Shown piece after piece: positions 1,437 to 26,777 of a stretch of 41,790 nt of DNA. This DNA is from an uncultured Bacteroidales bacterium (lineage in GTDB: Bacteria > Bacteroidota > Bacteroidia > Bacteroidales > Paludibacteraceae), in contig CACZRD010000090.1 in the NCBI GenBank assembly GCA_902783545.1, forward strand, positions 1 to 41,790, given 5' to 3'. The notes under the pieces were generated by a model, which worked only from the letters and a program-made list of their open reading frames with translations, was not told where the DNA came from and searched no databases. Both the position numbers and the translations under genes were made by a program. Each line of letters begins with the position of its first letter. Within the stretch, counting starts at the first letter, position 1.

Positions 1437-1981
1437 TAAAAGAACATAAACCTACATCAACACCCCTATGGGCAATAAACCTAAATTGCAATGGTTTTAG
1501 TAAATCAAAAATACGCAGCCCCAGTCGTCCTCCTTCGGATGCCGCCCGACGATCGCCATCTTGATGCGTGCCTTTTGAGCATGCTCAACGCCCCGCCTCA
1601 ACCTGCCGCTCCGGTCAGTCAGCCTTTATAAGTCTGCCTGACGGCTGCTTACAAAAAATGCTTCGCTAAAAAATGCCAAAAATCCATGCGGATGACAATG
1701 ACGGACTATTTTAAGTCAACTACAATCAGTAACGCATCTTGATCATTGTAATATTTTTGGTATTTTTTTGTTTATTTTTGTAAGGCGGCAGACAATTCTG
1801 TCAGGAATTGGCTGGTGGGTAAGCGGGCGAGAGGGCTATGGGAGCTTGCTCACGATAGACCTGTCGGACGATTCCCCACAGCTGCCATTGGGCAGCGTGC
1901 CGCCGCATTTTTGATTAAACAAACAACATCGAAAAGATCGCTTTGGGTTTATTGCCCTGTTTATTTCGGTTTATTTTCTTA
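1437..1981. repeat. Gene-free region bounded by long imperfect inverted repeats (MITE-like element 1)
   Basis: The region between feoB and the receptor gene holds no supportable gene. Its left arm (1437-1482) contains AACATAAACCTACATCAAC and GGGCAATAAACC. The right arm (1945-1981) is the reverse complement of a closely similar sequence, including GGTTTATTGCCC and CGGTTTATTTTCTTA. The same AATAAACC-type ends recur at 7181-7434, 25987-26468 and 26687-26777. No transposase is present, so a non-autonomous element or repeated regulatory hairpin is the likeliest reading. Confidence 0.5.
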
Positions 1982-7180: not shown

Positions 7181-7434
7181 TTTAGGAAAATAAACCTAAA
7201 TAAACCGTAGAGAATATTACATTGATTTAGTTTAATTAGCTTAATTCGTGAACCTTAAAAGGATTCTTCTGCTATTTATGTTTCTGTCCGAGGTTGGCTG
7301 TTCATGCGCAGCATGTGTGCCTTAGACTGATTAGTCGCACGTCAAGCTTGCTTGTAAGGGGGACTAAACAGGCTAAGACACATAGCACGGTAGTGACAGA
7401 CAACCGAGGGGTTTATGTAGGTTTATTTTCTTAA
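7181..7434. repeat. MITE-like element 2: inverted AATAAACC ends around a structured repeat
   Basis: The left arm has GGAAAATAAACCTAAATAAA (from 7185). The right arm (7408-7434) reads GGTTTATGTAGGTTTATTTT, which is nearly its reverse complement. Between them lies the structured repeat 7288-7409. The element sits between two convergent genes and beyond both their terminators, so it is not an obvious leader of either. No protein-coding frame is supportable. Confidence 0.55.
7288..7409 (+). ncRNA. Candidate structured RNA / repeat element, copy 1
   Basis: It can fold as a four-way junction. P1 is GGTTGGCTGT (7292-7301) with ACAGACAACC (7396-7405), nine pairs out of ten. P2 is the hairpin CATGC-GCA-GCATG. 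P3 is a long arm made of TGTG/CACA, CTTAG/CTAAG and TTAGTC/GACTAA. P4 is the hairpin CAC-GGTA-GTG. A second copy at 26324-26445 is similar throughout and keeps the pairing through compensating changes. No promoter of the local type was found just upstream. It may be an RNA or only the DNA hairpin core of a mobile repeat; orientation is arbitrary. Confidence 0.5.
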
Positions 7435-7512
7435 AGTAATCGCATCCGTAATAATGTAGGTTTATTTTCTTAAAGTAATCGCATCCGTAATAATGTAGGT
7501 TTATTTTCTCAA
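7416..7512. repeat. 39-bp direct tandem repeat, 2.5 copies
   Basis: Units start at 7416, 7455 and 7494, each beginning TGTAGGTTTATTTTC. The first two are identical over their full 39 bases (continuing TTAAAGTAATCGCATCCG), and the third stops at about 7512. The repeat has amplified the right end of element 2. Confidence 0.95.
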
Positions 7513-7525
7513 GTCCCCATCAACA

Positions 7526-7559
7526 CAAAAGCGGCGCATCGTAACGACGCGCCGCCTTT
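7526..7559 (-). terminator. Terminator after the 2,969-residue protein gene
   Basis: GC-rich stem GCGGCGCATCG/CGACGCGCCGC (7531-7555), one non-canonical pair, followed on the minus strand by TTTTGTG. It lies 20 bases beyond the stop codon at 7576. Confidence 0.9.
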
Positions 7560-7575
7560 GTAATAGTAGCAAATA

Positions 7576-10500
7576 CTACTTGACAACCAGTTTGGCGTTA
7601 TATACGCCCGTGGCATCAGTCAAGCGAACGAGGTAGATACCTGCGGTCGGCATACCCGGGAGGGTGATCTGACCGTTGTACTGCTGACGGAATGCCACAG
7701 CACCCGTAGCCGTTATTACCTCAACCTCGGCGTTGCTGAACGTACCAACAACCTGTACCGGCTGGCCTACACCTACGAGGTTCGGCTCCAGAGCCAAGCT
7801 GTTAGCGAAGATGTTATCCACAGCGTCAGCGTAATCAACGTTGATGGTGATGACAGCCTCACCGCAGCCAAGCGTGATCGTACGTGTGTATTGACCGCGT
7901 CCGGTGCCTACAGGCAGCAGTTCTTGGCCATTGAGTACGTACGGCAGGTTGGTGGACGAAACGGTATCGCTCAACTCGTAGGTCTGCGTTGTCGTGTTCG
8001 GCTTAGCCACCAGCAGGTGGAGCGTCACGATCGAGTCGCAGCCGTAGATAGTCTTCAGACCTTGCTCACCGTGCGGTGTTGAGTAGTCGCCCGGATTGCG
8101 CAAGCCGCCGAACAGGCCTTCGTCATATACCTCACCCTCGCATATTGCAGCGCGGAAGAATACATAACTCTCCTTGACGTTGATGATCTCAACAGCAGCG
8201 ATCGAGTCGCAGCCACGCTCGTTGATGACGGTGTCAGCATATACACCATCCTCAGAAAGTGCCTGATACTTCTCGGTGAAGTCATAGGTCTGACCCGGGC
8301 AGAGATATACCTTCAGGGTCTCACCCGTCAAGATCTCACTTACTGTCAAGTGCAGCGTTACGATAGAGTCGCAACCTGTTACAAGCGACGGGAACGTCTC
8401 GGTCTTGTTGGTCGATGTATAGTACTTCTCGCCGTTGAACTCGTAGTACGATCCTTGGCAGATAGTCTCTACGATATCCGTGTATTGTTTCGGATTAACG
8501 GTAACGTTCAGTACAACCGTCGAGTCGCAACCGATAGCGGATTGCAGTTTCCGCTTATATACGCCGGTCTTGGTAGCAACGAAGTTGAAGTCGTTCTCGT
8601 TGTACTCGTCGCCCTCGCACAGAGTAACACCACTCAGTGTGTTCACCGACTCGTCCTCTACCTCGATGGTCAGACGCTCAATGAGGTCTTTCACATCGTT
8701 CTTCTTTGCAGGAGTGAAGCGCTCGAACGAGTTCGTTCCGGCAGGCAACAAGTCTGCATCGATGTCGAAGTTGTAGCCTTCATAATCCTCCCAACGGCAG
8801 ATATTGTCACTGTTGGTAACAAGTTCGTAGCGGTTGAGTTGGATATTATCCAGCAATACAATGTTCTTTGATCCTTGTACCTGCTTGTCAGTATATGAGT
8901 AGATATAGAAAGCTACCCGGATGGTCTGACCAGCGTACTTCGAGAAGTCGATATACTTCGTCAAGAAGTTACCATTTGCATAGAACTGATTGAAGTTATA
9001 CTCGTCATCAGCATCCGTACTCCAGATAGTAGCATTTTCTTCCTTCCATGTATCACCGTCATCGGTCGAGACAACCACAATGAATTTCTCGAGCACGTCG
9101 GTATTCGGATTCGGAATATTGCTACTCTGTGCACGCAGAGCGATATCGAAGCTCAGCAAGAGTTGGTCATCGGCATTAGCGCTGAGGTCAATCTCCGGAG
9201 AGATGAGCCAGTGCTTAGCGGAGCTAGTTGAAGAAGACGACGCATTATTGGTAGTCAAGTTCGCATATATCTGCTGGTTCGATCCGATGTTGACACGCCA
9301 GTCGTACGAAGCCGTTGCACCTGCCTCGGTCAGCACTTTCTCGCCACTGAACACTTCTTCAACCGTAGCAGAATTGCTACGCCACCAGTTCTTCGGCATA
9401 GTCGTCTTGACTGCATTGAAGTCCTCGTTGAAGCGAACAACATAATCCGTAGTAAACATGCCTGTAGTACCCCATTCGGACTCTTCGCCTCCCGCTTCGT
9501 TGCAGATATGTTTGAGGCGGAAGAAATAGGTGGTACCCGGGGTCAGATTGTTGATATCAGCAAACGCTTGATCCTTAATCTTCTGGTCATAAACGATTGT
9601 TGTATCCACAAACTCTTCGTTTGTAGCCACTTGGACTTGGACATTCGCATTCTCAGTCAATGCACTCCAACGAATCATCGCAGATGTGGATGTCACGTTT
9701 TCGGCACGCTGACCAGTTACCGGCAAGCAGAAGTCACCCTTGATGATCTCCAAATCATCTACAAAGAAGTAACTTGCTGCTGTCGGTTTTGGAGCTACGA
9801 TAGCGATACGTCCCTTGCCGACGTACTTAGCCAACGGCAGAGCGTACTCTTGCCAGTACTCATTACCGGTAGGATCATCATATGCATAAACACCCGCATT
9901 TGCCTCCCATACTTGGTCATAGGTAATGGTATCCATCGGGACGAAGGTCTCAATGTCTGCAGGATCGCTCATCACACCGACAATCAACGTACGGCTATAT
10001 GTACTATTTTTAGCATACAGCTTGTTTTTGTTAGCATTCGTCGAGTGATTTCTCCAATAGAAGTAAGCTGCACGACCCCAGAAGTGGAGCTTCATCGAGT
10101 CAAGTTCAAAGCCGAGTTCCGGTAATACAGCATATGTATTATAAATACTTGCTGTCGAATAGAAGCGGAGTGAACGATCCGTTACAGCCTCACCACGAGC
10201 ATACGTATATGACGTAGAGTTGGAAATAACATACGGAGCGTTCGTAGCCGCACCAACGCCGATACCTTCTTCCCAGCATTCAGGAATGACGTAAGTAGCC
10301 GAAGTTCCCCATTGATAGAGGTTGTCCGTGAAGTTCCAGTAGGCTTCAGCCTCATCTGCCGGTTTACACGGCGTCGTGAAGTCGAGCGTTACTGCCTTAC
10401 TCAGATCCTCGCCACAAACAGTTTGAACGCTGATCGTATACGCTGTCTGTGCCTCAAGCGTGTCGATCTTGTACGACGAGGTGTTAACCACACTTGTAGC

Positions 10501-13500
10501 ATACGGCTCGGTCTTCCCCTTCTCGGTGATGGTTACCTTGAAGCTCGACTTCGGCGACAACCAGTTGAACTCAGCCGTGTTGTACTTGAGGGTAGCCTTG
10601 TCAAGAGCCAACTTGGTCACATTGGTACAAGCATTCGGATCTACCGTTTCAACCGTCACATCATCCACCCAAACTGTGTTATAATCGCCGGAACCGGCAA
10701 GGATAATATATTTACCCTTAGCGCCATACAGCGGAACAACTACCTCACGCCACCAATTGGTTCCTTCGGGATCTACTGCTTTAGTAGCATCCTTCTCTGT
10801 AACCTCCGGCAGGACATACTTGGTCAGTTCTTCGAATGTGGACATATCATACGGATCAGTAGCCACTCCTACATAGATAGTATGTTTGTACGAACCGGAT
10901 GCATAAGTGGTATATATAACAGAATCTACAGCGTCATTCACTTTAGAAGGTGTTATATATAAATCACGTGCCATGAAACTTATTTGAAGGTTGTCATAAT
11001 CGGCATCCTCGATAACAGGGAGTACGGCGTACGGACCATATCCCGGGTGAGCAGTGGTATTCGAATAGAAGTACATTACACTATCACCTGAGTAAGCCCT
11101 ACGTGCCGTTACAAGACCATTAGTCTTAGTGTTACCGTTAAGATACGGCGCATTACCGACAGTAGCCAGTCCGGTCCATACGTTGTTCACCATCCACGTC
11201 AGCGGAATCTTGTTGGAACCTGTCGGAGCTTGTGCCTTCCGCGGCTCACCATTCTCAAATGTCCATTTGGCGTCTGCCAGATTGACATGATAGAGTGTTG
11301 TAGCCGTTACCGGACCGCGCCATTCGCTGAGGTCATCAACGCCACAGTTCGCACGAACGTAGAAGTCGTACGTTGTACTCGGCTGCAGGCCTTCAACTAC
11401 GAATACGTTGGTGTCTGCCTGAAGAATAGTCATGTTTGCTATCTCAGCGTCCTTCAGACCATAAGCAACATCCCACTTCGTATTGTCACCCTGAAGTTGC
11501 TCCCAACTCAGTTTGGCGGAAGTGTCATACATATTGCCTACGTTCAGGTTATCCGGCTTGAAGCATGTCGGCACAAGCGAAACTTCGATATCATCCACAT
11601 AGACGCCACCGTATGATGAAGCACCATTACCACCGAAGCCGATAAATACGATATACTTACCGCTACCATTATACTTCTCACTGATTATACAGCTATACTT
11701 AGCATACGTAGCAACTGTAGTGATAATGGTATCCAACGGCTGGAAGGTTGCCAACAATGTATCTAAACTCTCTACCTCATCTGCTATACCAACTACCATT
11801 TTACGGTTCGGAGCAGAAGAAGTAGCTGCAGCATTGGCTTTATACCAGAAGGAGAGCATTGCTTTCTTCAGATCCACATCCATTTGCGGCATAGCCGTAT
11901 AAGAGAGGACATAAGAAGTAGCGGCACTGCTATACATATACAATGCACGTGTACTTCCGTTATTACCACCGGTTGTGGTATAAGGATAAGAAGCGTTCTC
12001 ATTCTCGGTAATAGTACCCTTGCTGTCAGTATAAGATACCCAGCAAGACGGGTGGTTCTTAGTACCACTTGCGCATTTTTCGAAATCTTCTGTATAAGGC
12101 AGGCTGTAGAACGGCGGACATGTCGTCGTGAACAAACGGGCATTGGACCATGCACTGGTGTCTGCTTCTCCACAAATTGTGCGAACATATACATAGTAGT
12201 TGGTCAACATCTTCAGGCCATCTACTGATGCTACTGTATCAACGATGTTCTTTACTATATTCACAACTTTTGCTTTCGCCTCGTTCGGAGCCACCTTAGT
12301 TTCCGTAACAGCAAGTTCGTATGCTGCACCGGTATTGTTCCATTTGAAGCGTGCATACGTGTCGCTCAACGAATCTGCTATGATAGTAGAAGGAGCAGCA
12401 CAAGCAGGAATCAAATCGAAGCGGATATTGTCAATGAATGCCTCATTATAGTTCTCTCCGCTCTCAGAGAGGAACATTACCTGTTTGCCTTTTGCGCCCG
12501 TTACATAGTCTCCGTCATAGCTATCGAACGGAATCGTGTAGGTAAACAAGCCCGTCGAATCAGTCGTATAGTTGAGACCGGTGATAGTTGTAATCGGAGC
12601 AAAAGTACTCAGGTCAGAAGCATTGCTAATAATACCAACGGTAATGCTCTTCACATTGGATGCTGTGGTAGAGTTGGTACATGCATCGAACGTGATTTGG
12701 TACTTGCTGATATCCTCTACATCCAGAGGCGGCATAATAGCATATGCACCGTCCGTAGAAGTGGTATTGTATATACGGAGCAAGAACCTGAATTTGCCTG
12801 TTTCCGAACCATAACGTGTCGGTATACTCGTTCCGTTCATACAACCCAATGTCCAGCACCCCAATACCGTTGCCTCAGAGAAGTCTTCTACACCATATAC
12901 TTCCGGTGTCTGTGCCAAACAAGTAGTACGGAAGGATGCGCTTTCTGACCACGTCGTCGGAGTTGCACCGCAAATAGTACGAACATATGCATAGTAAATT
13001 TTATTCAGCTCGAGCGCATCATTGCGGAAAATCAACGATGTCTGATCGGTCTCCTGAGCAGAAATCCTCTTGCCTGTTGTATCGGCAGAGTTAGGATTGA
13101 TGTTCTCTTTCAATACCAACACCTCATACTTGTCGGCATTGGTCTTGCTCCAAGTAAAGGTAGCACCGTTGATGGTCGGTTCAGAAGTCGTGAGACTGAA
13201 CAGTTTCTCACAATCCTGAATATAATTAACGGCAATGTCATCTAAATAATAGTGACAGCTCTTACCATCACGCTCGTAATTACGCTTGAAGGCGATATAT
13301 TTTCCTGCTCCTTCATACTTGTCAAACTTGACAAGAGCACCCTTCCAGGCAGTACCTACGACGTTCACGCTATCCACTACCTCGAAGGTGGTAATATCGT
13401 TCGGGTCGGTCATCACACCTACTTGCAGCATCGAGTTCTGCGTTGTGCTGTAACCTTTCACATAGAATTCGACTTGCAACTCCTTTACAGGCGCAGCCAT

Positions 13501-16485: not shown

Positions 16486-16575
16486 ACCTTAAAGATTTAG
16501 TTAATAATAATATAATGAACTCCTTTTTGAGTTTTCTTTCTTTATAAATTATTATAGCACCCTTCTCCTTTTGGG

Positions 16576-16600
16576 TCCCCAAAATTTTAATTTTTGGGGA
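16576..16600. terminator. Perfect hairpin between barrel gene and giant adhesin gene
   Basis: TCCCCAAAA (16576-16584) pairs perfectly with TTTTGGGGA (16592-16600) around a 7-base loop. No long T run follows on the minus strand, so it may be an attenuator or processing hairpin rather than a strong terminator. Confidence 0.45.
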
Positions 16601-16623
16601 GAGCGAAGGCCTTGTCGCGCTTT

Positions 16624-16640
16624 ATGTCACATGGTGACAT
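16624..16640. repeat. Perfect short inverted repeat downstream of the barrel gene
   Basis: ATGTCAC-ATG-GTGACAT, a 7-bp stem with a 3-base loop, 27 bases past the stop codon of the 316-residue barrel gene. Together with the hairpin at 16576-16600 it makes this gap unusually structured. Confidence 0.6.
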
Positions 16641-16666
16641 CTGTAGCGCCAAGCGCCGAACGCGAT

Positions 16667-17617
16667 TTATTTCCAGCACATGCAATGCTTGGGCTTGGGT
16701 GTTATGTCAAACAGCACCGTCAGTCGCACGCCTACCCGCAACCGGTGCGCATCGTGCGCAGCCAGCGAGGTGTCAAGCATACTGCCGAAGCGGATGTTCT
16801 GCTTCACGTTCTCCTGCGTCTGGGTCAGCGGGTTGGTGTTCACTGCCGAGTAGTCCACCAGCGGACTGCTGCTCCGCGCCTCATACTTCGTCAGCGGCAG
16901 ATCATAGCCTACAAACACTCCCGCACGCATCTTGATCACCCGCATCGGCAGCGGTATATTCACACCTGCCTCAGTCTCCAGTGCCACCTCGTTGGTGGCG
17001 GACAGCATCACTCCTTGTCCTGTATATGTATCGCCCGCCCAGAAGCCGTAGTACGGCGTCTCGCGTATAGGCTCGATGAAGCGGTCATACTCGCCCTGGG
17101 CGTACATCTGTGCCTTGAATCCGATGGTGTTAATCAAGGGTGCAGTGCGGAATGCCGCTCCCACACCTACGTACCACATATCCTCGGACTGATAGCCTAT
17201 CTGCAGCGGTACGACAACACGCAGTTGACGCTGCTGCTCACTCAGGTCGCTGAACTGATAGCGGTAGGTCAGCGCCTCGCCCATGCGGTCAACACGCGCA
17301 AACGCATCGGTATATTCGCCCATCCATATGTTCGTGATCATATAATCCGCGCCGACACCTATATTGACGAACCAGCCTTTGGCGTTCAGCTCATACAGCA
17401 GGTGTCCGCCACCGCCGCCGCCGAACTTCGTCTTGATCTCTTTGCCGCCGGGCAGCATGTTCGCCTCCACACCGTTCAGGCTCAATCCCAGCCAGTGTGT
17501 GACCGGCGCAGAGCCCTTGTAACGCGGTGGCGTGAGCGAGGTGTTCTTGCGCGTAGCAGCCTCCGACGCTACGGTCAGAAGCATACACATCAGCACTATG
17601 GTCACTCTCTTTGTCAT
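16667..17617 (-). CDS. Outer-membrane beta-barrel protein (316 residues), paralogue of the upstream OmpA-type barrel
   Basis: Signal peptide (MTKRVTIVLMCMLLTVASEA) followed by alternating amphipathic beta strands to the C terminus. It resembles the barrel half of the OmpA-family protein at 20723-22525. Both have a poly-Gly strand followed by a YE motif (KFGGGGGGHLLYEL here, FVGGGGGLLGVGYEY there), a central PLQIGY/PLMLGG strand, an MRAGVFVGYD/MRAAVFADYG strand and a final VGVRLTVLF/VGVKFTALL strand. It has no C-terminal OmpA domain. The ATG overlaps the stop codon of the preceding T9SS cargo gene by 4 bases (ATGA), so the two are translationally coupled. By analogy with PorP/SprF proteins encoded beside their adhesins, it may help export or anchor that partner; this is inference. 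Confidence 0.75.
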   Translation of the reverse strand: MTKRVTIVLMCMLLTVASEAATRKNTSLTPPRYKGSAPVTHWLGLSLNGVEANMLPGGKEIKTKFGGGGGGHLLYELNAKGWFVNIGVGADYMITNIWMGEYTDAFARVDRMGEALTYRYQFSDLSEQQRQLRVVVPLQIGYQSEDMWYVGVGAAFRTAPLINTIGFKAQMYAQGEYDRFIEPIRETPYYGFWAGDTYTGQGVMLSATNEVALETEAGVNIPLPMRVIKMRAGVFVGYDLPLTKYEARSSSPLVDYSAVNTNPLTQTQENVKQNIRFGSMLDTSLAAHDAHRLRVGVRLTVLFDITPKPKHCMCWK

Positions 17618-20600
17618 GGCACCACGATCTTTACCGCTCTATGCGTTGTCCGGTTCACTAATATATACACTCCGGCTGCTGTGATTACAGGGCGCTCATT
17701 CGCCACCGACTGCATCACCACACGTCCCGTCACGTCGTACAGCGTCCATGCTCCATCCGTCGCATCCCATACATTATCCACCGCCAGCACGCCTGCCGTA
17801 TAGGTTATCGGGCAAGCTGCTACCGTCACGCCGTCACCCGTACGCGTGAGCAGAACGGAGTACTGCGCACCCAGGTCGGATTCCGATACGATGATATAGG
17901 ACTGCTGCGCGCCGGGGATCAACTGCCCGTCTTTGTACCACTGGTAACTGCTGAACTCGTAGCCGCCGTTGTAGTCGGCATTCAGCAGGGCGATGAAGCC
18001 GTCCTTCTGTGCGATGATTGCTGAAGGATACTGCACCTCCACCGTCAGCGGCACGTCGGGCGCGGGGCAACGGGGCGTACCCAGCTGCATCACGGCGTCG
18101 TACGAGCCGGGCGTCACACTGTCGGGCAGCTCGATCTGTACCTCATCCTCTCCGCCGAAAGCGTACGACGGCTCAAATCCTGCCGTCACGCCGTCTGCAC
18201 CGAAGAGGATATACACACTATCCAGCCTACCCTGCTCCACCTGTACCGGCACGTTCAGTACGTTGGCATCCGCACATACACTCACAGCACCGTCCACCGC
18301 TACGATCAGCCGCGGTTCAACCTCCAGATGCAGTGTCACGATGCTGTCCACGTTTGGCCATTGCTCGCTCTTCAGCGATGCCTCGTACGTACCCGAGGCT
18401 GTTATCTGACGATCGCCGAGTTGGAAGTAGCCACCCTCGCAGAACGAGGTGTCCACCACAAACTGCGTCTCGTGGATGTGCACATGATTGAGCACCTCAC
18501 AGTCACCAACAATCGTTATATCATCAAATTCATATGGTTCCCAATATACCCTGCCGTTCCACATCGAGCCCTTGGGCAGGTGTACCTCTTGCTCTGTCGT
18601 GGACACATCTGGCAGTTGGAGATTGGCTATCTGTAGTGTATCGACGCATGCACCGTCGGATATCGATGCGATAATCAACGGCAGGAACGCACCTCCCGTA
18701 GCAGAATAGATATGTACGATGGAGTCCGCATTGGACACAACGGTCTCGCCGTCGCCGAAGTCCCAGATCACCTCCTGAACCCTTTCGTTGTTGGTATATA
18801 CTGTATCGGTGCGATGATCCTGATTCCAGCGTTCGATATTCTTGTAGTAGATATAGGATTTGTTGTAGAACGTCACGGCGTTCTGGCAATGCGCGCCGTT
18901 ATTCCATTTGTAATCCGCCTGCGCTACAGGGTAACGAGGTATACCGCAGGCATCCAAGGTGTAGTAACACTTGTCGTTGGTCTTCGATATAACATCCACA
19001 TTATACAGCAGGGTATCCATCGGCTCGATAGTGAAGGTCTGTGCACGAGACAGTACGTTGGAGCGGTCACTTGGCAAGTACCATTCATAGTCAAAACCTG
19101 CCGGAGCGGTGAACGAGGTGGTAGGATTATTCTCGCCACAGTTCAAGCCTGATAGCTCACCGGACTCACAGTCCAGTGTAAAATAGGCATAACTGTAGTG
19201 TCCGCCTGCCGTACAGTCGGCAGTCGTCAGCGAGACAAGGATGGTCTTACCTATATAATCGCGCAAGTTAACAGCAACTTCCGTCCACTCCTTCCACATC
19301 ACCTCGCCGTTACCTACAGCGTGCCAGCCGGTCTGGTCACCATAGCCGACATGGAAGTTGGCCTTGCCGCAACCTCCGGGTAGTTGCTGCCATCTCGTCT
19401 TGCCTTTCTCACGATACTCTATCGACAGCGAGAAGCTGGACTGGGTCTCTAAGTCATGAGAGGGCACAGGCTGGTTGAGCACGATCGCGTAACGCAGTTT
19501 AAGGATAGCTCCTTCGCCTTCGGGGACATTGTACAGATACTCTATACATTCAGCCTCCGCGCCATAGTACCAATTACCCAAGCGCACTGATGCCAACGCA
19601 TCATCGGGCTTGGTCTTAAGCTGGTTATCGGTACGGGGATCCGTCTCGTTTGGCACATAATGCAGCGTATGACGGCTCTCAATGGCATCATAGCCATAAT
19701 CCGCCAACTGCTTGGTGGCTTTGGGATTACCCGTAGTACCGATATACGTGGTGCACTGGCTCGGGTCATCCAGAGCAAGATAGTTGATGCACCGTCCCGG
19801 AAGGAAGTAGAACGGCGTATAGAGCACATACTCACTCACACCGTTTTCGCCACAGTGTGAACGTACATATATCTGCGCCATGCCTTCTGACAAGCCGTCT
19901 ATGTTAATACGCTTCAGCGTCACATGGTCATAGAACTGCCACGTACCTGCCTCGTAGTCATATACGCGAGCATCGTACCAGTCGGCATCGCCCTGCCACG
20001 ACACAACCATCGTTGTGCCGTTCATCGTACGGGTGAACTTCGTAGGCGGCGGGCATTCGTCTTCCTTAGGGATAATACTGATGTTATCTACGCATCCCGA
20101 AGGAGGAATGACTTTTGCATTCTTGGCGTTCGTCCACACGATAGCCAGTTTGTAGGTACCGCCGTCGGTGGAGAAGTTCACCTTGGCCTGACGCCATATC
20201 GAGGTCGTGTTGAACACTGTGTCTATACTGTACTCGTCCACCCAACTCGGGCGAAGAGCCGCAGCCGTGTAGGTCTGCACATCCTCCGGCACCCAGCATA
20301 CCCATATACCTTCGCCACTGGCGGCACGGCCTTGGGCGAGCCAGTCGAAGAACAGGGTGTATTCACCTTCGGGCAAGGTCAGTGTACGGACTGCCACAGC
20401 GTACATGTTCGTGCTGCCGCTGTACGTAGTATGCTCGCCGTCATCTGAGATGAACAGACCGTACGCGCCGTCACGCGTCGTGTTGGCGGCTGCACCCATA
20501 TACCACTTGTTCGGACATTTGTCTGCACGCGGGCCGTCATTGAGCAACCACTGCGCACGCTCCTCGGCATCCTCAAAGTCGCACTGGTACACAACCTGCC

Positions 20601-20682
20601 CTGCCATCGGCAGCGACAGCAGCAGGCACAATGCTACGAGCACGTTCCTCCACAATTCCGTATGTACTCTTCCGTCTTTCAT
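17614..20682 (-). CDS. T9SS-secreted multidomain surface protein (1,022 residues), paralogue A
   Basis: Signal peptide (hydrophobic core NVLVALCLLLSLPMAG, residues 13-28). An N-terminal jelly-roll region with DWLAQG and SGCVDNISI precedes an Fn3-like part (about 210-290). A conserved middle follows with ASVRLGNWYYGAE and KEWTEVAVNLRDY, a PKD domain (VIWDFGDGETV, about 637), a GCDS-like repeat degraded to PNVDSIVTLHLEV, an Ig-like segment (SYQWYKDGQLIPGA) and a T9SS type A-like C-terminal domain ending GVYILVNRTTHRAVKIVVP. It aligns over its length with the 1,023-residue protein at 22543-25614: the same domain order, the same ASVRLGNW and W.DW/EWT motifs and almost the same length. It overlaps the next barrel gene by 4 bases. 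Function unknown; a surface-exposed structural or binding role is likely. No catalytic motif was seen. Confidence 0.85.
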   Translation of the reverse strand: MKDGRVHTELWRNVLVALCLLLSLPMAGQVVYQCDFEDAEERAQWLLNDGPRADKCPNKWYMGAAANTTRDGAYGLFISDDGEHTTYSGSTNMYAVAVRTLTLPEGEYTLFFDWLAQGRAASGEGIWVCWVPEDVQTYTAAALRPSWVDEYSIDTVFNTTSIWRQAKVNFSTDGGTYKLAIVWTNAKNAKVIPPSGCVDNISIIPKEDECPPPTKFTRTMNGTTMVVSWQGDADWYDARVYDYEAGTWQFYDHVTLKRINIDGLSEGMAQIYVRSHCGENGVSEYVLYTPFYFLPGRCINYLALDDPSQCTTYIGTTGNPKATKQLADYGYDAIESRHTLHYVPNETDPRTDNQLKTKPDDALASVRLGNWYYGAEAECIEYLYNVPEGEGAILKLRYAIVLNQPVPSHDLETQSSFSLSIEYREKGKTRWQQLPGGCGKANFHVGYGDQTGWHAVGNGEVMWKEWTEVAVNLRDYIGKTILVSLTTADCTAGGHYSYAYFTLDCESGELSGLNCGENNPTTSFTAPAGFDYEWYLPSDRSNVLSRAQTFTIEPMDTLLYNVDVISKTNDKCYYTLDACGIPRYPVAQADYKWNNGAHCQNAVTFYNKSYIYYKNIERWNQDHRTDTVYTNNERVQEVIWDFGDGETVVSNADSIVHIYSATGGAFLPLIIASISDGACVDTLQIANLQLPDVSTTEQEVHLPKGSMWNGRVYWEPYEFDDITIVGDCEVLNHVHIHETQFVVDTSFCEGGYFQLGDRQITASGTYEASLKSEQWPNVDSIVTLHLEVEPRLIVAVDGAVSVCADANVLNVPVQVEQGRLDSVYILFGADGVTAGFEPSYAFGGEDEVQIELPDSVTPGSYDAVMQLGTPRCPAPDVPLTVEVQYPSAIIAQKDGFIALLNADYNGGYEFSSYQWYKDGQLIPGAQQSYIIVSESDLGAQYSVLLTRTGDGVTVAACPITYTAGVLAVDNVWDATDGAWTLYDVTGRVVMQSVANERPVITAAGVYILVNRTTHRAVKIVVP

Positions 20683-20722
20683 CTTTTAGCGCAAGCGGTC
20701 TTTTTTCTTTCAGCGCAGCGGT

Positions 20723-22525
20723 CTATAATATCACGAACTCTACACGTCTGTTCTGTGCACGACCTTCCTCGGTGTCGTTCGTAGCCACAGGCTCCGTACG
20801 TCCCTTGCCTTCCGCCTCGACACGCTCGGGAGCGATGCCGCGTCTGATCAACTCCTGACGCACGCTCTTCGCACGCTGCTCCGACAGGCTCTGGTTGAAC
20901 TTGTCCGAACCGACATTATCCGTATGACCGGTGATGCGGATGCGCATCTCGGGATACTCTATGAGCAGGTTATACAGGTTCTGCAACTCCGGTTCCGACT
21001 CGGGCAGTATGGTTGCCTTGTTCGTCGCGAAGAACAGGTTACGCATCACGATCGGACGTTTCTTCTCTATCGGCTCCAGACGGTAGGTCTTCTCGCCACC
21101 TATATCTTCTATCGTCTCGGCATACGTCACGTGATCTGCCGCCTTGATGCGGATACGCAGCGGCATGTTGAGCGGCAGGCGCTGGCTTGCGTAGCCCGTG
21201 ATCGAGTCCGTCTGAACGGAGGCGACAGTCTTCTTGTCGTTGCTGTTGATGAACTGCACATCGGCAGCTAACATTGCATCGGTCTTCGCGTCACGCACAT
21301 AGAGCCGGAAGTCCGGACGCGGCGTCAGGCTCATCGACAGCGTGTCACCCCACTCGCCGTGGTCGTAGGTGCGCGTCGTGGTGATATAATCCGGATGCGA
21401 CAGCTTCAGGTCGTACGGGCCGGATGCGATCTTCGCTATCATCACACCCTTGGCGTTCGTCACGCGGCGTGTGGTACGCGGTTTCTTGCCTTGCAGCGGA
21501 GTGATCTCCACAGCCGCGGCACCGATACCCTGGTTCGTCGCGCTGTCCGTGACAAACAGCACCATCGCCGGCTTGGCGGGTTTGGGCTGCTGGGGTTTGT
21601 TCATCTGCAGCAGGGCGGTGAACTTCACGCCTACGAGCAGGCTGTTCAGTCCGCCTCGTGCCCAGTCGGAGCAGTGCAGCGAACGCATCGTCAGGTTCTG
21701 CTCATCGACCATTGCCATCGCTCCTTCGGGCGACTGCCCCATACTTACTATACCATAATCCGCGAACACGGCCGCACGCATGTGCAGCGGGTGCTTGCGC
21801 GCGTTATTGCGCTCGTTCCACTCCTTGCCCAGCAGACCGTTGATGTTCACGCCTATCTCTGCCGAGGCGGCTACATCCAGTCCGTAGCCCGTCTTGCCCT
21901 TGGCTGCGTACGGCAGGTCGTTCTCCGCACCGTGCGCCGGCATGTTCGTCCACTCGGGGTCGTAAGCGTTATAGTCGGTGATGGAGGTGGAGTAACTGCC
22001 TTTCTGGCTGTAGTTACCCAGCACGGTGTAACCTACCTTCGCACCGGCCATCAGGTACCATGTGTCCCAGCGTCCGCCAAGCATCAGGGGCACCATCACC
22101 TGTCCCACTACATGGTTCTCCTTCAGCGGGTCGGCTATCGTGTAGTGCTTGGTCTGGTTGTAACCGTCGCCCATCATCGCCACGTCGTACGGCATCGGGA
22201 ACGTCACCTTGTCCTGCGAGGTGAACATCCTCAGCTCCGCGCCGGCGTCCAGGATGAAGTTGTCGTAGCGGTACTCGTAGCCTACGCCGAGCAGGCCACC
22301 GCCGCCGCCCACGAACTTACTGTTGTCGTAGTTGTTCATTAGGCCGCTGTAGCCTCCACCGCCCCAGAACGCCACATGGTGGAGGTTACGCGTCGCGCCT
22401 TTCCACTCCTTGCTGGAGCTCTTACTGCTCTTGCTGTTCTTGCTATTCTTCTTCGCCGGCGCCGCCATCATCACTTGGCTCGCCAACAGCAATATACCTA
22501 ATATATAACAGATATTCTTTCTCAT
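20723..22525 (-). CDS. OmpA-family protein: N-terminal beta-barrel, carboxypeptidase-like linker, C-terminal peptidoglycan-binding domain
   Basis: 600 residues. Signal peptide (about 1-22), a Lys/Ser/Asn low-complexity stretch (KKNSKNSKSSKSSSKEW), then a barrel (about 45-315) homologous to the 316-residue barrel encoded downstream. Next come a carboxypeptidase-regulatory-like domain (about 320-400, FVTDSATNQGIGAAAVEI) and an OmpA domain (about 493-600) with RNLFFATNKATILP, ITGHTDNVGSDKFNQSLSEQ and the binding-site residues in GRTEPVATNDTEEGRAQNRR. The OmpA domain should bind peptidoglycan and tie the barrel to the wall. The gene lies 17 bases after a T9SS cargo gene and 40 bases before its paralogue, in one minus-strand operon. 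It lacks the TPR and WD40 parts of the T9SS component PorE, so it is not that protein. Confidence 0.88.
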   Translation of the reverse strand: MRKNICYILGILLLASQVMMAAPAKKNSKNSKSSKSSSKEWKGATRNLHHVAFWGGGGYSGLMNNYDNSKFVGGGGGLLGVGYEYRYDNFILDAGAELRMFTSQDKVTFPMPYDVAMMGDGYNQTKHYTIADPLKENHVVGQVMVPLMLGGRWDTWYLMAGAKVGYTVLGNYSQKGSYSTSITDYNAYDPEWTNMPAHGAENDLPYAAKGKTGYGLDVAASAEIGVNINGLLGKEWNERNNARKHPLHMRAAVFADYGIVSMGQSPEGAMAMVDEQNLTMRSLHCSDWARGGLNSLLVGVKFTALLQMNKPQQPKPAKPAMVLFVTDSATNQGIGAAAVEITPLQGKKPRTTRRVTNAKGVMIAKIASGPYDLKLSHPDYITTTRTYDHGEWGDTLSMSLTPRPDFRLYVRDAKTDAMLAADVQFINSNDKKTVASVQTDSITGYASQRLPLNMPLRIRIKAADHVTYAETIEDIGGEKTYRLEPIEKKRPIVMRNLFFATNKATILPESEPELQNLYNLLIEYPEMRIRITGHTDNVGSDKFNQSLSEQRAKSVRQELIRRGIAPERVEAEGKGRTEPVATNDTEEGRAQNRRVEFVIL

Positions 22526-22542
22526 TGTTTCGTCCTCCCCTA

Positions 22543-25500
22543 TTAATCAATTACACCAATATGACATATATGCGTTTGCCCGTTCATCACCACCTGCACC
22601 ACATACACACCCGCCGGCGCATTGATCGTCAGGCTGTTCTCTCCCTCGCTGAGCGCCGCAGTGAGCACCACCTCGCCAAACGCGTTGACGATCGTCGCGT
22701 TAGCCGCAGCACTGACCTTGATCGTCAGCGTACCGCCCGAGCGCACGGGTGACGGATAGACGTACAGCACATCTTTCGTCTCGCTGGCAGCGGGCAGGAA
22801 CGGACATGTAGCTACATGCTCACCGTTGCTCACACGCGTCATTTCCAGGTGGTAGTGCGCCTCGGGATCCAAGCCGCCCTGCAGATACAGGTAGGCGAGG
22901 TTCGCTCCCGCGATAGGCTCGCCTTCCTTATACCACTGGAAGTCCGTGAACACATGCTTGGCGGAGTCGGTCTCCAGTGTCGCAGCGTTCTTGAGCGACA
23001 GTACATCGTCCCAGCGCTGATAAACCCAGCCCGGCATACATACGCTCACTGCCGCTTCCTCCACTACCGAGCAGCCGAAGTCGTTGAAGAACTCCAGCAC
23101 GAACTGCCCGCCGTTCAGACCGGTGATCGAGTCCGCTGTCTGCGGAGCGCCACCGTTCACGGTGTAGTATTCGTAACCCGTACCGCTGATGAAGATCGCA
23201 CCGGAGTTAGGCTCGTCACTCATCTCGCGGATGGTCACATCCGGCCGGATGGAATCCAGCACGGTGACGTTGCACCATACCGTCGAGTCACAACCGTACT
23301 GGTTGGTATAGAAGCGGTAGAACTTACCCGATTCGCGCGACTTATAGGTCTGTCCGTCCACGGTCAGCGGCACCTCGGCACATACAATGGTGTCCGGCGC
23401 CTGCTCCGTGCTCTGCGGAGCCAGATGCAGGTTCAGATATACCGTTGAGTCACAACCGGCAACCGTCTTCCACACATTCACATATTCGCGTTCCTCGCCG
23501 GCGAACTGCGGGCCGAACACTATATAGCCGCCCTCGCAGATGGTTGTATCAATATGCAGCACAGTATCACCTATAGCAGGGATAACGATCGTGATCGTTG
23601 TATCATCCACACAGCGTCCCTCGGCAATAGCTGCCGCCAGGGTCACCTCATACGTGCCACCCTCGTTGGGGAAGATCACTACGGGGTTACGCTCCGAGCC
23701 GTATTGGCCGTTGCCGAACGTCCACTCATATTCATCACACGGCCAGTCATAATGGTATTCTATCACATTATCGAAACGCGTCATGATATGGCTCTTGTTC
23801 GTAAAGCGCACGCGGTTCTGGCAGTTATTCGGCTCATACTTCCACCCGAAGTCCGAGATAGGATACCTCGGCAGACACGACGAATAGAGGTCAAAGCCGC
23901 AACTCTGCTCCTCAAGATAGACCAGGTGGCAGCGATAGGTGGACGTATCCGACGGCTCGATGAGCAGTGTCTGTCCGTCTCCCGAAAGCATGGACTCGGG
24001 CACGGGGTTGTCATACTTGTCGAACCACTCGTACGCAAATCCGTTCGGCGCAGCGATGGACATCTGCGCATCATCGCCGCAGCTCGTACTGGTGATTCGC
24101 GCAGCGGCACATCCCATGGTGAAATAGGCATAGCCGAAGTGTCCGCTCCAGTTGCAGTCACGCGTTGTCAGACGGATCGTCAGACGCTCGCCGTCGTACG
24201 CATCGAGGTTCAGACCGATGGTTGTCCAGTCTTTCCACGTTACGCCTCCGGTGTTATTCCAGCCGGGACGGTTGGAGTCGGCAAAGAAGTCCGCCATACC
24301 GCACGTCGGATCGATCAGCACCCCGTCCTCATCCAAGATCTCCAGGTTGAAGTGCGGTTGATCGGCCTCTCCGTGACCGGGATCCTCCAAAACAACAGCA
24401 TACTTCAGCAGCAAAATCGAGGCATTCTCTCCGTCCACTACGTATGAATACGACAGCGACTCACCTTCCGCGCCCACATTCCAGTTACCCAGACGCACCG
24501 ATGCCACCTCATCCTCCGGAACGATCTTCAACCGGCCGGCGGTACGGGGGTCATACTCATCCGGATCCCAATTCACTGTGTGACGCATGTATTTCGGATC
24601 GTCCGTGTAAGACGTGTCCACTACGCCCTCGTTCATGTACGGATCCTTGAAAGTACCATACGTCGCCGTCACATCCTCGCCGTACAGATCCACAATATTG
24701 ATGCAGTGACGATCGGGATAGTACACGCCAAACGATGTGCGGTAGTTGTACGCACTGGTGTCTGTCTCATTACATACGCCGCGAACGCGGATATCGTATG
24801 CACCTTCGTCCAGACCCTCTATCACGAACCGCTCGTCACGGATACCGGTCTGCACCGACCAGCGCTCACGGCCGTAACGCCTGTACTCTACGCAGTACTG
24901 GGCACTGGTGCCCGTCCACGTTACAATCACCGAGTCACCCACCACCTCGGCCTGCACATTGGCAGGCATAGCGCAGTTTCGCGTAGTGACCTGGATATTA
25001 TCTACACAAGCGGATATAGGGTTAGGCAGCTTGGCATTGCGATTCTTGTTGCGCCATGCGAAGTACAGACGATACACACGCGTGCCGTTGGAGTTGAACT
25101 CTATCATCTCATGCTGCCAGCGGCTGCGACTGCGCATCACGCGGTAGTCGGGCTTGGCGAAGCTCTGGATGTAATCCGGCCACTCTGCACGCGCATAGTT
25201 ACAGTCCATGCTGGTCATCTGCTGGGCTATACCGATGCCGGCGCACATATACGTCTCATCTCCACCCAGACAGCGCCAGTCGAACGACAGCACATAGTAT
25301 CCCTGGGGGATAGTGAAATCCAGATAGGCATAACACGTGTTCCATACCGTGTCGAACGTACAAGTCTCACCCTCGTCGTAGGATATATACAGCGAACGCT
25401 TGCCCTCGCTCTTCACGGCTGTGCCAATCATCCAGCGCTCCTTGCAGCGCGTGGTATCCGCACCGTCGTTCAGATGCCAGTCCTTTAACTTGATACTGTC

Positions 25501-25614
25501 GCCTAATTCAAATCCCATGGAATAGGTACCCGGCAACACGACCGGATACATATACGCCGACACAAGCATCAGCATGCTTGCTGCTAAGATTCTGTACTTT
25601 CGGAGTCCTTTCAT
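22543..25614 (-). CDS. T9SS-secreted multidomain surface protein (1,023 residues), paralogue B; first gene of the operon
   Basis: Signal peptide (KYRILAASMLMLVSAYMYPV), an N-terminal jelly-roll region (FDWRCLGGDETYMC, CVDNIQV), an Fn3-like part (about 215-300) and a middle with ASVRLGNWNVGAEGE and WKDWTTIGLNLDAYDGE. A PKD domain follows (about 615-665, YEWTFGNGQYGSERNPV), two GCDSTVYLNLHL-type repeats (about 720-790), an Ig-like FQWYKEGEPIAGANL segment and a T9SS type A-like domain (last ~75 residues, starting YVYPSPVRSGGTLTIKV). It is paralogous to the protein at 17614-20682. Each paralogue is followed directly by a homologous barrel gene, suggesting duplication of a cargo-plus-barrel unit. 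It is driven by the promoter at 25750-25781 with a leader of about 130 bases. Function not known. Confidence 0.87.
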   Translation of the reverse strand: MKGLRKYRILAASMLMLVSAYMYPVVLPGTYSMGFELGDSIKLKDWHLNDGADTTRCKERWMIGTAVKSEGKRSLYISYDEGETCTFDTVWNTCYAYLDFTIPQGYYVLSFDWRCLGGDETYMCAGIGIAQQMTSMDCNYARAEWPDYIQSFAKPDYRVMRSRSRWQHEMIEFNSNGTRVYRLYFAWRNKNRNAKLPNPISACVDNIQVTTRNCAMPANVQAEVVGDSVIVTWTGTSAQYCVEYRRYGRERWSVQTGIRDERFVIEGLDEGAYDIRVRGVCNETDTSAYNYRTSFGVYYPDRHCINIVDLYGEDVTATYGTFKDPYMNEGVVDTSYTDDPKYMRHTVNWDPDEYDPRTAGRLKIVPEDEVASVRLGNWNVGAEGESLSYSYVVDGENASILLLKYAVVLEDPGHGEADQPHFNLEILDEDGVLIDPTCGMADFFADSNRPGWNNTGGVTWKDWTTIGLNLDAYDGERLTIRLTTRDCNWSGHFGYAYFTMGCAAARITSTSCGDDAQMSIAAPNGFAYEWFDKYDNPVPESMLSGDGQTLLIEPSDTSTYRCHLVYLEEQSCGFDLYSSCLPRYPISDFGWKYEPNNCQNRVRFTNKSHIMTRFDNVIEYHYDWPCDEYEWTFGNGQYGSERNPVVIFPNEGGTYEVTLAAAIAEGRCVDDTTITIVIPAIGDTVLHIDTTICEGGYIVFGPQFAGEEREYVNVWKTVAGCDSTVYLNLHLAPQSTEQAPDTIVCAEVPLTVDGQTYKSRESGKFYRFYTNQYGCDSTVWCNVTVLDSIRPDVTIREMSDEPNSGAIFISGTGYEYYTVNGGAPQTADSITGLNGGQFVLEFFNDFGCSVVEEAAVSVCMPGWVYQRWDDVLSLKNAATLETDSAKHVFTDFQWYKEGEPIAGANLAYLYLQGGLDPEAHYHLEMTRVSNGEHVATCPFLPAASETKDVLYVYPSPVRSGGTLTIKVSAAANATIVNAFGEVVLTAALSEGENSLTINAPAGVYVVQVVMNGQTHICHIGVID

Positions 25615-25707
25615 AAAACCGATCTTTCAAAAACAGTCCCTTCAAAAGTCAGGTTATTACTGCTTTTCTTCAAAACTAATACACTTCAGGTTTAGCGTAT
25701 CTTCCCA

Positions 25708-25729
25708 CGCCGGAAGAGCCCCTCCGGCT
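25708..25729. promoter_or_regulatory. Leader hairpin of the surface-protein operon
   Basis: GCCGGA and TCCGGC arms around AGAGCCCC lie between the promoter and the start codon at 25614. The role is unknown; an attenuator or mRNA-stability hairpin is possible. Confidence 0.4.
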
Positions 25730-25749
25730 TAAAAAGACAAAAACCGGCT

Positions 25750-25781
25750 GCAAATTTACGCAAAAATTATCAAAATAGCAA
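25750..25781 (-). promoter_or_regulatory. Promoter of the surface-protein operon
   Basis: On the minus strand TTGC (25778-25781), 19 bases, TAAATTTGC (25750-25758). It lies about 135 bases before the first gene. No comparable box was found between the five genes that follow. Confidence 0.75.
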
Positions 25782-25986
25782 CTTTTTTACACAAAAACGT
25801 CCTTTTCTTTTGCATTTTGTTACACAAACATTGCAGTACCTTTCATAATGTTACGCTTTTTTCCACTCCCTCAGAATCCGGAACTAAGGCGAGTTGAGGG
25901 TGTCTTGAGCCATTGTTAGTCCGATGTTAGTCCGTTGTCGTATGCATCTCGCGACCACCCCGAACTTGACAATACCGTGACAGAAC

Positions 25987-26468
25987 TTTAAGAAAATAAA
26001 CATACATAAACACTGCTTGGATGTTTGCTTGTGCCACGCACAATATGAATCTTTGTCCGTCCGGTCTGCTCACAAACGCGTTTGCACCAGCCCGACCGTA
26101 CAAATCTTCACCTCTTCGAGGCGCAAACACCCAATCAGCCATAAACCCAAATAAACTACGTAGATCAAATATTCGAGTGCGGAAAATGCGGAACTATCGG
26201 AAATAGTAGATTCTTCCTTCCGTAAATTCCGTGATTTCTTATCTCGCTCTGCTCGAACGATTATTTCCGTACTCAGCACGAAATATTCATCGTAATGGGA
26301 TCGTTGTTATTTAGGTTTATTGCCGAAGTTGGCTGTTCATGCATAGCATGTGTGGGTTAGAATGTTTAGTCGCACGTCAAGCTCGCTTTTAAGGGTGACG
26401 AAACAAGCTAAGGCACAAAGCACGATAGTGCAACAGACAACTGAGGGGTTTATTTAGGTTTATTTTCC
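25987..26468. repeat. MITE-like element 3, composite, with inverted AATAAAC ends
   Basis: The left end (25987-26011) reads TTTAAGAAAATAAACATACA and the right end (26446-26468) GGGTTTATTTAGGTTTATTT, close to its reverse complement. A nested inner pair is present: ATAAACCCAAATAAAC near 26140 and TTATTTAGGTTTATTGCC near 26306. The right half contains copy 2 of the structured repeat. Short open frames here have no recognisable features. The rest of the 1.2-kb gap holds promoters and leaders. Confidence 0.5.
26324..26445 (+). ncRNA. Candidate structured RNA / repeat element, copy 2
   Basis: Second copy of the element at 7288-7409. P1 is AGTTGGCTGT (26327-26336) with ACAGACAACT (26433-26442); its outer pair is A-T here and G-C in copy 1. 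P2 is CATGC-ATA-GCATG, with a changed loop and the same stem. P4 is GCAC-GATA-GTGC, one pair longer than in copy 1. P3 keeps TGTG/CACA and TTAG/CTAA. Flanking sequence (GAGGGGTTTATNTAGGTTTA) is also shared with copy 1, which implies the unit moved as a block. RNA or DNA function is undecided. Confidence 0.5.
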
Positions 26469-26686: not shown

Positions 26687-26777
26687 TTTAGAAAATAAAC
26701 ATACATAAACCCAAATTAACCGCAGGGTAAATGCCAATGATTTTGTTCATTGAAATTTATTTAGGTTTATTTTCTAA
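26687..26777. repeat. MITE-like element 4, short hairpin repeat just before tig
   Basis: TTTAGAAAATAAACATACAT (from 26687) and ATTTAGGTTTATTTTCTAA (26759-26777) form imperfect inverted repeats around about 50 bases. The right arm ends 37 bases before the tig start codon, so it lies in the tig leader and could fold there. Confidence 0.55.

Follow-up and report, generated by a model that had tools for sequence, protein, structure and literature searches.

The question raised by this locus is what kind of folded repeat occurs in the window, a 41,790-nucleotide stretch (contig CACZRD010000090.1, assembly GCA_902783545.1) from an uncultured Bacteroidales bacterium of the Paludibacteraceae, and whether its structure is maintained as RNA or as DNA. 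A sequence-only reading had reported a two-copy element folding into a four-way junction and had offered either a structured RNA or a REP-like DNA hairpin as its identity. The element exists, is under selection, in all likelihood is mobile, and extends further than this reading saw. On balance, it is best described as a dispersed mobile repeat that carries outward-facing four-way-junction modules.

The two copies lie at 7288-7409 and 26324-26445, as first reported, and have in common a closing stem (P1), the P2 hairpin, a long P3 arm, and the P4 hairpin, together with a GAGGGGTTTAT-TAGGTTTA flank. The compensatory differences described between them are borne out: a P1 pair that is G-C in copy 1 is replaced by A-T in copy 2, the P4 stem of copy 2 is longer by one G-C pair, and the P2 loop is GCA in one copy and ATA in the other. 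The gene setting was also read correctly, with convergent long open frames flanking copy 1 and divergent ones flanking copy 2. The count of two was too low, as the genome harbors at least eight copies. Close copies number four, diverged copies were located with a covariance model at C89, C105, and C100, and the window itself contains a third copy at 26006-26140 on the minus strand. Related repeat sequence at the ends of contigs C3, C105, and C141 suggests further copies. With up to one mismatch allowed, this genome contains 26 occurrences of the flanking word TAGGTTTATTTTC and none of its reversed control.

Distribution and fold

A covariance model (R1) built from ten copies finds the element in 64 of 151 genomes of the same genus (E <= 0.01), with up to 15 matches per genome, some of which are the reverse strand of the same place. 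Only 2 of 295 genomes drawn from the order match (E <= 1e-4, strict filters), and both belong to the same genus. Of 154 matches listed in 89 sources, 127 copies were kept, the rest being 26 reverse-strand hits to places already represented and the single forward copy L228; L159 and L227 are apparently the same place. The alignment holds 126 of the 127, and 90 non-redundant copies remain after removal of rows at >=85% identity. There is no match in phages with copy 1 as the query or in plasmids with copy 2 as the query, and one stretch among viral contigs carries the P3 apex. No description of the element or of GxxExxY mobility was found in the open-licence literature. No Rfam family reaches its gathering score in the window; mir-2300, the sole Rfam match of the copy 1 region (E 0.15), was dismissed as chance.

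The proposal that the structure is selected is supported by comparison. All 47 pairs covary in 147 distinct aligned rows (of 150 counted), with changes on both sides in 47 of 47, and the covariation score of 0.597 exceeds the background given by shuffles (0.189) and by slid controls (0.057-0.098). It counts against this result that the R1 alignment is fitted to the structure of the model itself and includes reverse-strand matches of some places; therefore, the slid controls and the table of 90 rows matter most. In alignment A2, the P2 register fits six of ten rows. A fold with three hairpins is obtained for 82 of the 90 non-redundant copies with DNA energies and for 70 with RNA energies, and the fold z-scores of the two plus strands (-3.9 and -2.7) exceed chance. 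With RNA energies, copy 1 by itself favors one long hairpin over the four-way junction; support for the junction comes from copy 2 and from comparison.

Anatomy of the unit and its gain and loss

A full unit has two outward-facing modules around a short center, enclosed on both sides by an outer inverted repeat; in each module, a closing stem and three arms meet in a four-way junction. Copy 1 is the right half of a unit with a left terminal repeat, and copy 2 is the right member of an outward-facing pair. Of 19 neighbors at most 260 bp apart, 17 are arranged head-to-head, two in tandem, and none tail-to-tail. Near-direct copies of a repeat of ~15-20 bp stand on both sides of each module, an arrangement that allows the intervening module to be lost; replication slippage readily removes a hairpin enclosed by direct repeats. 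Window positions 26687-26775 align through their flanks with a site in G001 that holds both modules, which implies that both were lost, or never gained, at the repeats.

Presence and absence at orthologous sites was followed in the interval between an amidohydrolase and a lipoprotein gene, for which 22 of 30 orthologous loci were readable by script. In 18 of the 22, the interval measures 3-92 bp and the element is absent, while the remaining four (G000, G001, G118, and G002) contain one; three of these match R1, and that of G002 was identified by eye. The elements in G001 and G002 have other arms, and that in G001 is in the reversed orientation.

The gene orientation around the 127 copies is mixed (50 ++, 28 --, 18 +-, and 16 -+, with a gene called on one side at most for 15). 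On account of this mixture, the element was rejected as a strict 5′ leader or riboswitch.

Selection on a single strand

Mismatches in the 90 non-redundant copies are distributed unequally, with 151 G-T against 31 A-C, and 384 A-G plus G-G against nine C-T plus C-C. Counted per copy, G-T exceeds A-C in 64, falls below it in seven, and equals it in 19. The 27 copies in head-to-head pairs, whose orientation is set by the pair, give 34 versus 8 for G-T and A-C and 127 versus 4 for purine and pyrimidine mismatches. A duplex cruciform under selection would give equal numbers of G-T and A-C; thus, one strand is read. G-T amounts to ~4% of the standard pairs.

The hairpin loops bear on the chemical nature of this strand. 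The triloops of P2 and P4 are mostly of the GNA type, at 66 of 97 for the 82 copies folded with DNA energies and 54 of 82 for the 70 copies folded with RNA energies. GNNA accounts for 38 of 54 tetraloops with DNA energies (18 with a purine and 20 with a pyrimidine as the third base) and for 36 of 52 with RNA energies (20 and 16, respectively). By arm, the third base of GNNA is a purine in 13 versus 6 cases in P2 and a pyrimidine in 14 versus 5 in P4. Complementary C..G or T..A ends occur in 72 of 75 tetraloops of P3 with DNA energies and in 58 of 60 with RNA energies. The title of Nakano et al. (2002), as given in the reference lists of PMC5090098 and PMC6811676, names d(cGNNAg), d(cGNABg), d(cCNNGg), and d(gCNNGc) as the set of stable DNA loops, and PMC5090098 reports that DNA hairpins with a GAA loop melt higher than variants of the first or third base. 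The loops of the element are largely of these stable DNA kinds, which favors single-stranded DNA over RNA. It is likely that selection acts on one strand as single-stranded DNA, laid bare during replication or in an excision intermediate, and not on an RNA.

A candidate nuclease

Two units hold a GxxExxY gene (TIGR04256, PF13366) between their modules. The association was measured at loci selected through their GxxExxY gene rather than through the junction. Sixty stretches were fetched around GxxExxY matches of ~99-113 bits, which are part of all such matches; five places already known to hold the junction were left out, and one known before (G157:C11) was kept. Clade A (group A) comprises proteins with at least 65% identity to the L267 protein, group B the rest of the 60 loci, and group C 30 loci returned for the best-scoring TIGR04256 matches. 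An R1 match (E 0.05) is present in 18 of the 23 clade A loci, within 300 bp in 16 and at a distance of 21-44 bp in 14. The corresponding numbers are 14 of 37 for group B, 2 of 30 for group C, and 0 of 30 for loci of the control gene IVP (PF05635). In groups A and B together, the nearest junction points away from the GxxExxY gene in 25 of 32 loci. Across the 151 genomes of the genus, 52 contain both, 12 the junction only, 31 GxxExxY only, and 56 neither (p 2.6e-8, uncorrected for relatedness).

E43, D83, E93, K95, and Q107 are invariant in ten GxxExxY proteins, and the Pfam assignment (PF13366), the catalytic E, D, and ExK residues, and the fold are those of PD-(D/E)XK nucleases. No relatives of solved structure were found by sequence search. 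The AlphaFold model has a mean predicted local distance difference test (pLDDT) score of 93, and a fold search with it returns SSO0001, a Cas4, first, followed by a restriction-endonuclease-like protein, LHK-Exo, the Cas4-family ACE1, and lambda exonuclease, among others. Several of these nearest-fold nucleases act on DNA ends. On the basis of the invariant residues, Pfam, and the search with the predicted model, GxxExxY is a RecB/Cas4-like PD-(D/E)XK nuclease.

It is tentatively hypothesized that the complete element carries the GxxExxY nuclease, which would recognize the folded junction or trim it as the element is excised or inserted, and that the commoner gene-free copies would be served by it in trans. 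Viral contigs yield no close GxxExxY relative and six at 29-37% identity with the alignment query. One of the GxxExxY-bearing units (L302, 806-1948) also carries a gene for a CatA-like O-acetyltransferase (NF040637).

Relatives of the apex and Clostridiales-1

The apex ACGTCAAGCTYGCTTGTAAG is found in 107 stretches of a collection of 84,980 genomes, where ~1 would be expected by chance (arithmetic). It recurs, usually on hairpin arms, in Lachnospiraceae (many repeats), Planctomycetes, and Flavobacteriales. For 50 non-redundant occurrences out of 109, the arm-stem score averages 12.5 versus 3.2 for shuffled partners; 26 of the 50 arms lie above the 99th percentile, and the lowest score is 3. 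The asymmetry of mismatches is weaker in these arms (G-T 32 versus A-C 17, A-G 15 versus C-T 1). Apex elements with a clear inverted repeat (61 of 95, mostly from Lachnospiraceae) show an 8-bp flank agreement of 0.412 versus 0.286 for shuffled flanks (z 5.8), which is perfect (8/8) in L072, L152, and L167. The Lachnospiraceae apex loci, each up to 8 kb, contain no GxxExxY relative; thus, those repeats may share the apex only and not the mover.

Clostridiales-1 (RF01699), a family of Rfam, was identified at 3 of 18 apex loci tested. It is a multicopy family: of twelve genomes, two have 33 and 48 matches, respectively, and one has none. Among 23 copies chosen from 30 loci, three hairpins are formed in 22 with RNA energies and in 21 with DNA energies, and the commonest loop is gCTTGc. 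A 2010 paper rates Clostridiales-1 as "probably" RNA (PMC2864571).

At G200:C34:54705-55490, six Clostridiales-1 matches follow one another on one strand with a spacing of ~120 bp, resembling a repeat array. By eye, the apex arm of L122 (Lachnospiraceae) runs opposite to the remainder of its element, and an apex hairpin stands just 3′ of a tRNA-like 3′ end in L106, L110, L034, and L163 (Bacteroidota).

Alternative explanations

The two options of the sequence-only reading do not fare equally. A mobile DNA hairpin fits the dispersed copies, the outward-facing pairs, the presence or absence at orthologous sites, the lack of strict gene orientation, and the mostly DNA-type loops better than a structured RNA does, and a mobile DNA repeat is likely; the strict REP-like form, moved by a Y1 transposase of the RAYT type (REP-associated tyrosine transposase), is unsupported. 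In the RNA alternative, which is unlikely, the element would be a small RNA (sRNA) or an untranslated-region element spread as a repeat, and the asymmetry of mismatches would mark the transcribed strand. Selection on a single strand agrees with this, as do an apex, G(CUUG)C, that is a stable tetraloop in RNA as well and the filing of its cousin Clostridiales-1 by Rfam as an sRNA. The downstream gene has the same sense in 71 copies and the opposite sense in 48, copies that are not independent of one another. RNA, too, forms GNA loops and G-U pairs, and so the type of loop is no more than suggestive. Within P2, the third base of GNNA is a purine in 13 of 19, and columns that are purine-rich and unpaired, or misaligned, may account for part of the A-G excess. 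These points weigh against single-stranded DNA. The RNA explanation is itself opposed by the head-to-head pairs, in which one copy is antisense to any read-through transcript, and by the occurrence of copies in every gene arrangement. Furthermore, the GNNA loops go beyond GNRA, G-T pairs are scarce, and three-hairpin folds are fewer with RNA energies.

In the second alternative, an ordinary miniature inverted-repeat transposable element (MITE) would be moved by a DDE transposase acting on the terminal repeats, with the arms affecting only stability or expression and GxxExxY as a passenger. The terminal inverted repeats and the flank agreement of the apex elements above shuffled speak for this explanation, which is nonetheless somewhat unlikely: a MITE does not need a strand-specific junction kept under covariation, and, of 13 recurrent clusters of open reading frames near the copies, one is GxxExxY and representatives of the other 12 include no Pfam transposase (three have no family), no genome-wide DDE search having been made. 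The recurrent neighbors include Melibiase, TonB plug, amidohydrolase, LRR, DeoR, fn3, epimerase, and VWA proteins, among others. Movement of a REP/RAYT or IS200/IS605-type element by a Y1 HUH transposase on single-stranded DNA leaves strand-specific hairpins and dispersed copies, and some Y1_Tnp match (E 0.001) is present in 26 of the 64 element-bearing genomes. This mechanism is very improbable here. The element's own genome (78% complete) has no Y1_Tnp match, and the 52 of 151 genus genomes with some match (39 over the cut-off, most weak) show no association with the element (26 with both, p 0.22). At >=34 bits, the element is in 3 of 10 genomes (p 0.52), and the two strongest matches (G159 and G027) are in genomes without it.

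The reading of a mobile repeat served by GxxExxY also has evidence against it. Movement itself was not observed, and no target-site duplication is evident by eye in the Bacteroidales units. Group B GxxExxY loci are only partly associated with the junction, most of their matches scoring 20-37 bits. A close relative of the L267 protein is present in 7 of 88 junction-chosen loci, most copies having no GxxExxY gene nearby, and the locus of the sole GxxExxY gene found in the genome of the window lacks an R1 match. In the fold search, E 0.001 is reached by SSO0001 only, TM-scores by query length are 0.44-0.52, and other folds appear at lower ranks. A more far-reaching proposal, of low probability as a whole, is a transposase-free class of mobile elements whose ends would be strand-specific single-stranded DNA four-way junctions recognized by the small RecB/Cas4-like GxxExxY nuclease. 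Unrelated repeats of several phyla would, in this proposal, have acquired the same apex module, and Clostridiales-1 would belong to the class as DNA rather than as an RNA.

Comparison with known systems

Clostridiales-1 shares with the element a closing stem and three arms, a GCTTGC apex on the long arm, GAA triloops, and dispersal in many copies. It differs in phylum, in the order and sequences of the arms, and in being filed as RNA, and the window falls below its gathering score. MITEs are likewise short, mostly gene-free, intergenic, bounded by inverted ends, and present or absent at orthologous sites. In contrast, the element has a conserved one-strand four-way junction, with no parent DDE transposase identified among the recurrent neighbors and no target duplication evident by eye in the genus. 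Repetitive extragenic palindromes (REP), bacterial interspersed mosaic elements (BIME), and the RAYT system also comprise palindromic extragenic repeats, often in inverted pairs; however, the element is a four-way junction of ~130 nt and not a short hairpin, and it is not associated with a Y1 transposase. The attC sites of integrons resemble it in that structure is conserved beyond sequence and one DNA strand is folded, but their core-site motifs were not seen on reading, no systematic search having been made and integrases not having been searched. The intervening sequences of 23S rRNA (IVP) likewise combine a small gene with complementary ends on either side, although no IVP locus among 30 carries the junction.

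If the proposals hold, a conserved module on hairpin arms would link mobile repeats of Bacteroidota, Lachnospiraceae, and Planctomycetes, and at least one Rfam family would move from RNA to DNA biology. The little-studied GxxExxY family would gain a testable substrate, its mechanism being the most testable of the new ideas. The strand test (G-T versus A-C, purine versus pyrimidine mismatches), combined with the loop test, provides a cheap check for other orphan "RNA" motifs.

Features of the window

Coordinates of the junction modules, outer repeats, and related structures in the window
Feature	Position	Strand	Evidence
Left member of a head-to-head pair of junction-like structures with another flank (TTTTTTGTAAG)	1506..1658	-	Scripted fold; no R1 match up to E 1
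Right partner of the 1506-1658 structure, apex GGGAGCTTGCTC	1775..1913	+	Scripted fold; no R1 match up to E 1
Terminal inverted repeat at the left end of the copy-1 unit, where no junction module was seen	7186..7206	-	
Four-way-junction module, copy 1 (P1, P2 hairpin, P3 arm, P4 hairpin)	7286..7416	+	R1 match 126.8 bits (R1 training row); alignment
P3 apex ACGTCAAGCTTGCTTGTAAG, a 20-mer common to several phyla	7339..7358	+	Sequence; genome-collection scan
Right outer repeat of the copy-1 unit, GTTTATGTAGGTTTATTTTC	7411..7430	+	
Two more TAGGTTTATTTTC copies 39 bp apart, in tandem duplication	7457..7508	+	
Left outer repeat of the copy-2 unit	25992..26011	-	
Left partner of copy 2; same architecture, arm sequences very different	26006..26140	-	R1 match 47.9 bits (not a training row); fold
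Copy 2: four-way-junction module forming the right half of a head-to-head pair	26321..26453	+	R1 match 134.3 bits (R1 training row)
Right outer repeat of the copy-2 unit	26448..26467	+	
Unit of this kind lacking junction modules, both of which are present in the orthologous G001 unit	26687..26775	+	

Beside copy 1, a 39-bp tandem duplication (7411-7508) multiplies the outer repeat. In the unit at 1440-1981, the same outer repeats enclose two head-to-head junction-like structures whose flank differs (TTTTTGTAAG ... CATTTTTG or GTATTTTTG). Elsewhere, at G000:C135 (L051), the P3 apex of a junction copy is broken by an insertion containing GTTCCCCCATGACTGGGGGAAAC.

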